A stretch of DNA of 37,102 nucleotides from Hyphomicrobiales bacterium (GTDB taxonomy: Bacteria > Pseudomonadota > Alphaproteobacteria > Rhizobiales > Beijerinckiaceae). Where the stretch lies: contig JAPLOV010000166.1 of assembly GCA_026400565.1 (NCBI GenBank), positions 1-37,102 of the forward strand, given 5' to 3'. A program made the translations under genes and the position numbers. Shown here piece by piece: positions 11,669 through 13,745 of the stretch. A model generated the notes under the pieces. The model saw only the letters and a program-made list of their open reading frames with translations, ran no database searches and was not told where the DNA came from. How positions within the stretch are numbered: the first letter of the stretch is position 1; every line of letters begins with the position of its first letter.

Positions 11669-11748
11669 ATCGTCCACAAGGGCCGGCCTCCACCGGACGT
11701 GGGCAATGTTCATCGGCGGCTTCGGCCAGCCCTACCATGGAGAGAGCA

Positions 11749-12117
11749 GTGGCTCGTATTGCGGGTGTCAACATCCCAACAGGCAAGCGCGTGGTGATCG
11801 CGCTTCAGTATATTCACGGCATCGGCGCGAAGTTCGCGTCCGAAATCTGCGAGAAGGTCAACATCCCGGCCGAGCGCCGCGTGAACCAGTTGTCCGACGC
11901 CGAAGTGCTCCAGATCCGCGAAACCATCGATCGCGACTATCAGGTCGAGGGCGATCTGCGCCGCGAAGTCTCGATGAACATCAAGCGCCTGATGGACCTT
12001 GGTTCCTATCGTGGCCTGCGTCACCGCAAGGGCCTGCCGGTCCGCGGCCAGCGCACACACACCAATGCGCGCACCCGCAAGGGCAAGCCAAAGGCGATCG
12101 CCGGCAAGAAGAAGTAA
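11749..12117 (+). CDS. rpsM: 30S ribosomal protein S13 (GTG start proposed; track ORF starts at ATG 11737)
   Basis: [15 protein letters not shown]... equals the conserved [10 protein letters not shown] start; GGAGAG Shine-Dalgarno immediately upstream overlaps the track ATG. Confidence 0.95.
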
Positions 12118-12236: not shown

Positions 12237-12626
12237 ATGGCCAAGGAAGCAACACGCGTCAAGCGCCGCGAACGCAAGAACATCGCCTCCGGCGTGGTGC
12301 ATGTGAACGCCTCTTTCAACAACACCATGATCACCATCGCGGACGCGCAGGGCAACACGATCTCGTGGTCCTCCGCCGGCGTTATGGGCTTCAAGGGTTC
12401 ACGCAAGTCGACCCCTTATGCTGCCCAGGTTGCGGCGGAAGATGCGGCGCGCAAGGCTGCCGAACATGGCATGCGTACGGTCGAAGTCGAAGTGCTCGGC
12501 CCCGGTTCCGGTCGCGAGTCCGCGCTGCGTGCGTTGCAGGCAGCGGGCTTCACCGTCACCTCGATCCGTGACGTGACGCCGATCCCGCACAATGGCTGCC
12601 GGCCGCGCAAGCGTCGGCGCGTCTGA
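12237..12626 (+). CDS. rpsK: 30S ribosomal protein S11
   Basis: [21 protein letters not shown]...; [18 protein letters not shown]. Confidence 0.99.
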
Positions 12627-12643
12627 TCAACAGTTCACACCGC

Positions 12644-12699
12644 CGTGATGCCTGCGCGGGGCATCACGACGACATGGGCGATGGTGCGCGACCATCGCC
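12644..12699 (+). promoter_or_regulatory. Two tandem perfect hairpins in the rpsK-rpoA spacer with near-identical 7-nt loops
   Basis: CGTGATGCC-TGCGCGG-GGCATCACG (12644-12668) and GGCGATGG-TGCGCGA-CCATCGCC (12677-12699). Confidence 0.6.
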
Positions 12700-12728
12700 A
12701 GCTAGACTTTATCAGGAAAGGTGCGGTC

Positions 12729-13745
12729 GTGATTAGCAAGAATTGGCAGGATCTGTCGAAGCCCAGCAAGCTGGAAGTGAAGCCGGGCGATGATCCAAAG
12801 CGCGTCGCCACCGTGGTGGCGCGCCCGCTGGAGCGCGGTTTCGGCCAGACGCTCGGCAACTCCCTGCGCAGGGTCCTTCTGTCCTCGCTTCAGGGCGCAG
12901 CCGTCACCGCCATCCAGATCGATGGCGTGTTGCACGAGTTTTCGTCCATCCCCGGCGTCCGTGAGGATGTGACCGATATCGTGCTCAACGTGAAGGCGAT
13001 CGCGGTCCGGATGCAGGGCGAGACGGCCAAGCGCATGACGCTGCGCAAGCAGGGTCCGGGCACCGTGACGGCCGGCGACATCAACACGGTCGGCGATGTC
13101 TCGATCCTCAACCCGGATCATGTGATCTGTACGCTCGACGAGGGCGCGGAAATCCGCATGGAGTTCACGGTCGCGACCGGCAAGGGCTACGTCCCAGCCG
13201 AGCACAACCGTCCGGAAGATGCGCCGATTGGCCTGATCCCGGTCGATGCGCTGTATTCGCCAGTGCGCAAGGTCTCGTACCGGGTCGAGAATACCCGCGA
13301 GGGCCAGAATCTTGACCGCGACATGCTGACCATGACGGTGGAGACGGACGGCTCGATCTCGCCCGAAGATGCACTGGCCTATTCGGCCCGCATCCTTCAG
13401 GACCAGCTCGCTGTGTTCATCACCTTCGAAGAGCCGCGCAAGGAAGAAGTGGTGTCGAATGCGCCGCAGCTTCCGTTCAACCCGGCCCTTCTCAAGAAGG
13501 TGGACGAGCTGGAACTGTCTGTCCGTTCGGCCAACTGCCTGAAGAACGACAACATCGTCTACATCGGCGACCTGATCCAGAAAACCGAAGCCGAGATGCT
13601 CCGCACCCCGAACTTCGGCCGCAAGTCGCTGAACGAGATCAAGGAAGTCCTCGCCGGCATGGGCCTGCATCTCGGCATGGAAGTGTCGGGCTGGCCGCCG
13701 GAAGACATCGAGTCGCTCGCAAAGCGCTTCGAAGAACACTACTGA
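12729..13745 (+). CDS. rpoA: DNA-directed RNA polymerase subunit alpha (GTG start proposed at 12729)
   Basis: (M)[16 protein letters not shown]...; AGGAAAGG Shine-Dalgarno upstream; C-terminal domain ...[43 protein letters not shown]. Confidence 0.97.

Follow-up and report, generated by a model that had tools for sequence, protein, structure and literature searches.

The rpsK-rpoA spacer of the window, which is the whole stretch of 37,102 nt analysed here, is 102 nt long, begins after the rpsK stop codon (12624-12626) and contains two hairpins, H1 and H2. They had been noticed in a preliminary description as two tandem perfect hairpins, and both the sequence and RNAfold bear this out. The features of the region are as follows.

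12237 to 12626, + strand: rpsK (S11), the upstream coding sequence; open reading frame, 95% identical to other alphaproteobacterial S11.
12644 to 12668, + strand: hairpin H1, 9-bp Watson-Crick stem plus a T.G pair, pentaloop GCGCG (12654-12658); sequence, fold and covariation in the genus.
12669 to 12676, + strand: H1-H2 linker of 8 nt without a U-tract; sequence, with an empty terminator scan.
12677 to 12699, + strand: hairpin H2, 9-bp stem, pentaloop GCGCG (12686-12690); sequence, fold and weaker covariation.
12714 to 12721, + strand: Shine-Dalgarno-like AGGAAAGG of rpoA, within neither hairpin; sequence.
12729 to 13745, + strand: rpoA (RNA polymerase alpha), the downstream gene, GTG start at 12729; protein search.

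H1 begins about 17 nt 3' of the rpsK stop and H2 ends 29 nt 5' of the rpoA start. With the RpoA protein as query, 60 of 61 genus genomes gave relatives, almost all of them full-length. The H1 sequence is CGTGATGCC-TGCGCGG-GGCATCACG, and that of H2, preceded by the linker ACGACATG, is GGCGATGGT-GCGCG-ACCATCGCC. The loops were originally drawn with 7 nt, but a T.G pair in H1 and a T-A pair in H2 lie inside them, leaving the pentaloop GCGCG in both and, with the loop-closing pairs counted, 10 stem pairs in H1 and 9 in H2. The reported 9 bp of H1 are thus right for the Watson-Crick part, to which the T.G pair is added, while the reported 8 bp of H2 become 9, since the T and A at the loop ends pair. 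The near-identity of the loops within the window, like the difference between the two stems, was correctly described.

Folded alone with RNAfold, each hairpin forms exactly as drawn (H1, -19.9 kcal/mol, z -3.3; H2, -17.4 kcal/mol, z -3.2), and the 121-nt region reaches -49.2 kcal/mol (z -3.4), a value equalled by 0 of 200 shuffles. The density of perfect hairpins of at least 8 bp is 0.23-0.25 per kb, or about one per 4 kb, in the own genome and in the nearest complete relative, and no second pair of them at most 30 nt apart was found in 593 kb (400 kb of that relative and 193 kb of the own genome). The chance of two GC-rich pentaloops matching is estimated at about 0.0015 before allowing for the many other features that might have been noticed, and loop identity within one hairpin pair, taken alone, is weak evidence.

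A search of 67 genomes for genus spacers gave 59 distinct ones, of which the main clade contributed 53 and the window's clade 6. Relatives whose spacers lack both hairpins, named beforehand as a ground for abandoning the idea of a functional element, did not appear: two hairpins are kept in 59 of 59 distinct spacers, the first soon after rpsK and the second before rpoA, and the stem letters vary while the hairpin position stays fixed. The 6 sequences of the window's clade give H1 a pairing of 98.3%, with 4 of 10 pairs doubly changed and a covariation score matched by 0 of 500 shuffles. H2 has two doubly changed pairs and a pairing of 75.9%, which is low partly through an alignment effect, as MAFFT shifts G043 by one base and by eye the H2 of this genome has 9 intact pairs; H2 is imperfect in G054 and G040, and its covariation is weak. 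The main clade has 99.6% pairing over both helices, and its five doubly changed pairs are all in H1. This high pairing, together with doubly changed pairs in both clades, clearly argues, at the level of sequence comparison, that H1 is selected as a structure; the same comparison points less strongly to such selection on H2. The hairpin model R2, made from the window's two hairpins, found convincing matches in the window's own genome (G000) and G040 alone, so sequence conservation is absent outside the near clade. Three other genus members (L111, L121 and L134) carry between rpsK and H1 an additional inserted palindrome, CATGATGCCGAAAA...TTTTCGGCATCATG, which is probably a dispersed repeat. The window's family includes spacers identical or near-identical to those of named Chelatococcus and Microvirga records (L042 with L201; L017 with L195/L196), which points to Beijerinckiaceae in the wide GTDB sense.

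The genome is GC-rich and single hairpins of this kind are frequent in it, so that a functionless pair arisen by chance or mutation might be supposed; compensatory change throughout the genus and a strong enrichment of hairpins at the rpsK-rpoA spacer make this improbable. The enrichment extends over the class. Of 78 diverse alphaproteobacterial rpsK-rpoA spacers, 51% have a stem with 8 or more pairs, against 4% in dinucleotide shuffles, and the hairpins mostly lie 8-22 nt downstream of the rpsK stop. Stems of at least 7 pairs occur in 68% of rpsK-rpoA spacers, compared with 30% of rpsM-rpsK and 34% of rpoA-rplQ spacers, these two flanking spacers being also shorter.

Perfect dyads are also compatible with DNA-binding sites, and the palindromes could act in DNA instead of RNA, either as protein-bound dyads or as a dispersed repeat. 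However, the pair has no further genomic copy, its sequence is freely replaced with the pairing kept, and it is conserved within an operon, at a place where a promoter-like site is absent. Moreover, several relatives have G.U pairs among their stem variants, as expected of RNA intermediates, which favours an RNA structure over a DNA dyad, and we regard the DNA-level explanation as very improbable. A dispersed palindromic repeat of the REP type is not supported, as H1 has one exact copy and R2 one match in the own genome.

The hairpins could also form a partial intrinsic terminator, that is, an attenuator passing just a fraction of polymerases into rpoA. In some other Alphaproteobacteria the first hairpin is indeed followed by T-rich sequence, such as GGGAAGGGTTTTTCGG in L186, and the 8 nt that follow the strongest hairpin of alphaproteobacterial spacers contain on average 2.3-2.8 T. 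On the other hand, a U-tract is absent after both H1 and H2 in the window and likewise in the genus clade whose H1 is followed by CCTGTCC, and a scan of 12400-12900 found neither terminator-like nor promoter-like sites. Attenuation is thus quite unlikely here.

Different stems with a preserved loop had been taken as the mark of a repeated RNA recognition element. The part of this proposal that concerns the stems stands, as they differ within the window and covary among relatives; the part that concerns the loop does not, and so, of covariation and loop conservation in relatives, only the former was found. Only the window and G033, whose DNA is 95% identical, have GCGCG in both loops. G046 and G054 have GCGCG in the H1 loop and TCGCG in the H2 loop, the loops of G043 and G040 are unrelated to GCGCG, and in the main clade the H1 loops are ACCG, AGGG or similar, with unrelated H2 loops. 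Relatives with 96-98% identical RpoA already differ in loop sequence, and, as far as these alignments reach, the loop match is lost over distances at which the stems persist. A conserved loop as the recognition element of the window therefore fails. Kissing of the two self-complementary GCGCG loops was also considered and set aside, since G040 and G043 lose the complementarity.

The pattern proposed for the window, differing stems with a preserved loop, does occur within the family, in sister genera that have other sequences and the loop GACG. This twin-GACG element lies in the rpsK-rpoA spacer of at least 10 other genera of the family (model R1, E <1e-6; 53 genomes), and R1 matched 58 of 298 family genomes, with one copy per genome except in G552, whose two matches sit at or near contig ends. 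The first hairpin has the loop GACG in 31 of 31 loci inspected, and its stem is freely rewritten (79 doubly changed cells, with 0 of 500 shuffles as high). The second, about 40 nt before rpoA, covaries too and combines the conserved core GGCCAGGGTCGACGGACCGATATGCC with a GACG loop and a CAG/GATAT internal loop; in the loci L300-L329 and L278 the core lies beside the rpoA Shine-Dalgarno sequence. R1 found no match in 289 genomes from across the class, and Rfam gave none for two twin-GACG representatives. A search for a mimic of the GACG hairpin in E. coli rRNA found no convincing site, a comparison too distant to count against mimicry, and the ribosomal RNA genes of G116 were not found with Rfam models.

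The twin-GACG element and the H1/H2 pair share the spacer, two tandem hairpins, matching loops and varying stems; the invariant GACG loops and the core adjoining the Shine-Dalgarno sequence belong to the former only and are absent from the window. R1 has no match in the window or its genus, and the window's hairpins are therefore not to be classed as twin-GACG. The twin-GACG element is, from its conservation, a candidate new cis-regulatory RNA of rpoA, and it makes protein-read twin hairpins at rpsK-rpoA an idea worth testing, being a concrete, unnamed candidate that lends itself to a direct search for its protein partner.

For the window itself, such an idea would mean a repeated protein-binding element resembling a ribosomal-protein leader, in which one protein reads both hairpins and represses rpoA translation. 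The matching loops of the window, the invariant GACG of the sister genera at the same place, and the ribosomal leaders known to control rpsD-rpoA-rplQ in other phyla (PMC7247131) speak for it, but the loops differ even between genomes with nearly identical RpoA, outside the genus the rest of the hairpin sequence is not conserved either, and the window has no match to the GACG model. In addition, the rpoA Shine-Dalgarno sequence lies outside both hairpins and is not sequestered, which makes its simple sequestration unlikely. Such a protein-read element is a minority reading, the strongest of the alternatives but still unlikely. A related and slightly less likely view would treat the rpsK-rpoA spacer of the family as a site of evolving lineage-specific RNA regulators of alpha, with the twin-GACG element as a form read by a protein beside the rpoA ribosome-binding site and the GCGCG twins of the window as its diverged counterpart.

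RNA polymerase is needed in a far smaller amount than ribosomal protein, and rpoA lies on one mRNA with the genes of S13, S11 and L17. H1 and H2 have two of the traits sought in a processing or stabilising hairpin, namely an intercistronic position in one operon and stems kept by compensatory change. We give about an even chance to the explanation that the pair acts in cis as an intercistronic RNA structure of the rpsM-rpsK-rpoA-rplQ mRNA and would separate the expression of rpoA from that of the ribosomal-protein genes before it by processing or end protection. H1 would guard the upstream, ribosomal-protein half of the mRNA against exonucleases at its 3' end, a cut would fall in or near the hairpin pair, and H2 would afterwards cap the 5' end of the rpoA-rplQ half. 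The two halves could then decay and be translated apart, so that the level of alpha would differ from those of S13 and S11. What we infer here is that the mRNA is cut or protected at the hairpins and that this changes how much alpha is made; the existence, placement, conservation and covariation of the hairpins are observed, as is the absence of terminator, promoter and repeat features. Classical RNase III substrates have longer stems than these 9-10 bp, which is a point against processing unless H1 and H2 stack on each other.

The own genome and G040 both have hairpins at rplL-rpoB as well, after rplL and, in the form of a long hairpin, before rpoB; in these two loci (L299, 1227-1422, and L298) the post-rplL hairpins are followed by short T runs. 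At the E. coli rplJL-rpoBC junction, attenuation and processing are known (Barry, Squires and Squires 1980, as listed in PMC5371410). Given hairpins at both junctions of ribosomal-protein and polymerase-subunit genes and this precedent, a role in separating expression would be the most economical explanation of H1 and H2, which probably tune the amount of polymerase made. The likeness to the E. coli attenuator and processing region, as far as that listing describes it, consists in hairpins between ribosomal-protein and polymerase-subunit genes of one operon; unlike it, H1 and H2 lie in rpsK-rpoA, have no U-tract and are candidates for processing, and sequence kinship is not claimed. If the hairpins set the ratio of polymerase to ribosomal protein in Alphaproteobacteria, they would correspond, at rpoA, to the known rplL-rpoB device.

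The S4 leaders, represented by RF00140 (Alpha_RBS) and by the leader before rpsD-rpoA-rplQ (PMC7247131), are likewise cis RNA structures of rpoA-bearing operons. Unlike H1 and H2, however, they precede rpsM or rpsD, and in this operon rpsK and rpoA have no rpsD between them. An Rfam search of the spacer, suggested in the preliminary description, gave no match; at the gathering threshold there was none in the whole window and nothing in the related loci, and the RF00140 covariance model did not match 12627-12728 even with a cut-off of E 5. At the rpsM start (11676-11781), a full-length RF00140 match lies below threshold (26.3 bits, cut-off 38), and one of this kind is present in 9 of 15 other alphaproteobacterial loci; an S4-type leader at this position is possible in view of these model scores, with S13 codons supplying part of them. 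Another cis RNA of the same operon is the L17 ribosomal leader reported before rplQ in Alphaproteobacteria (PMC7247131), but it lies downstream of rpoA rather than in the rpsK-rpoA spacer.

Other hairpins are found in the rpsK-rpoA spacers of further lineages. Rhizobiaceae and their kin have a different one directly before rpoA, with the conserved loop GATTGGATG (alignment A5, model R3; loci L005-L009, L011, L013, L031, L055, L057, L063, L068, L069, L072 and L078); R3 has strong matches within one family of the order, and Rfam gave no match in the three loci tested. Several uncultured Alphaproteobacteria (L059, L060, L066, L070 and L079) have in common a TTTGCATATGCANTAA-like palindrome before rpoA. 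In Methylobacterium segetis (L030), rpsK and rpoA are about 1 kb apart, with an open frame seemingly inserted between them.
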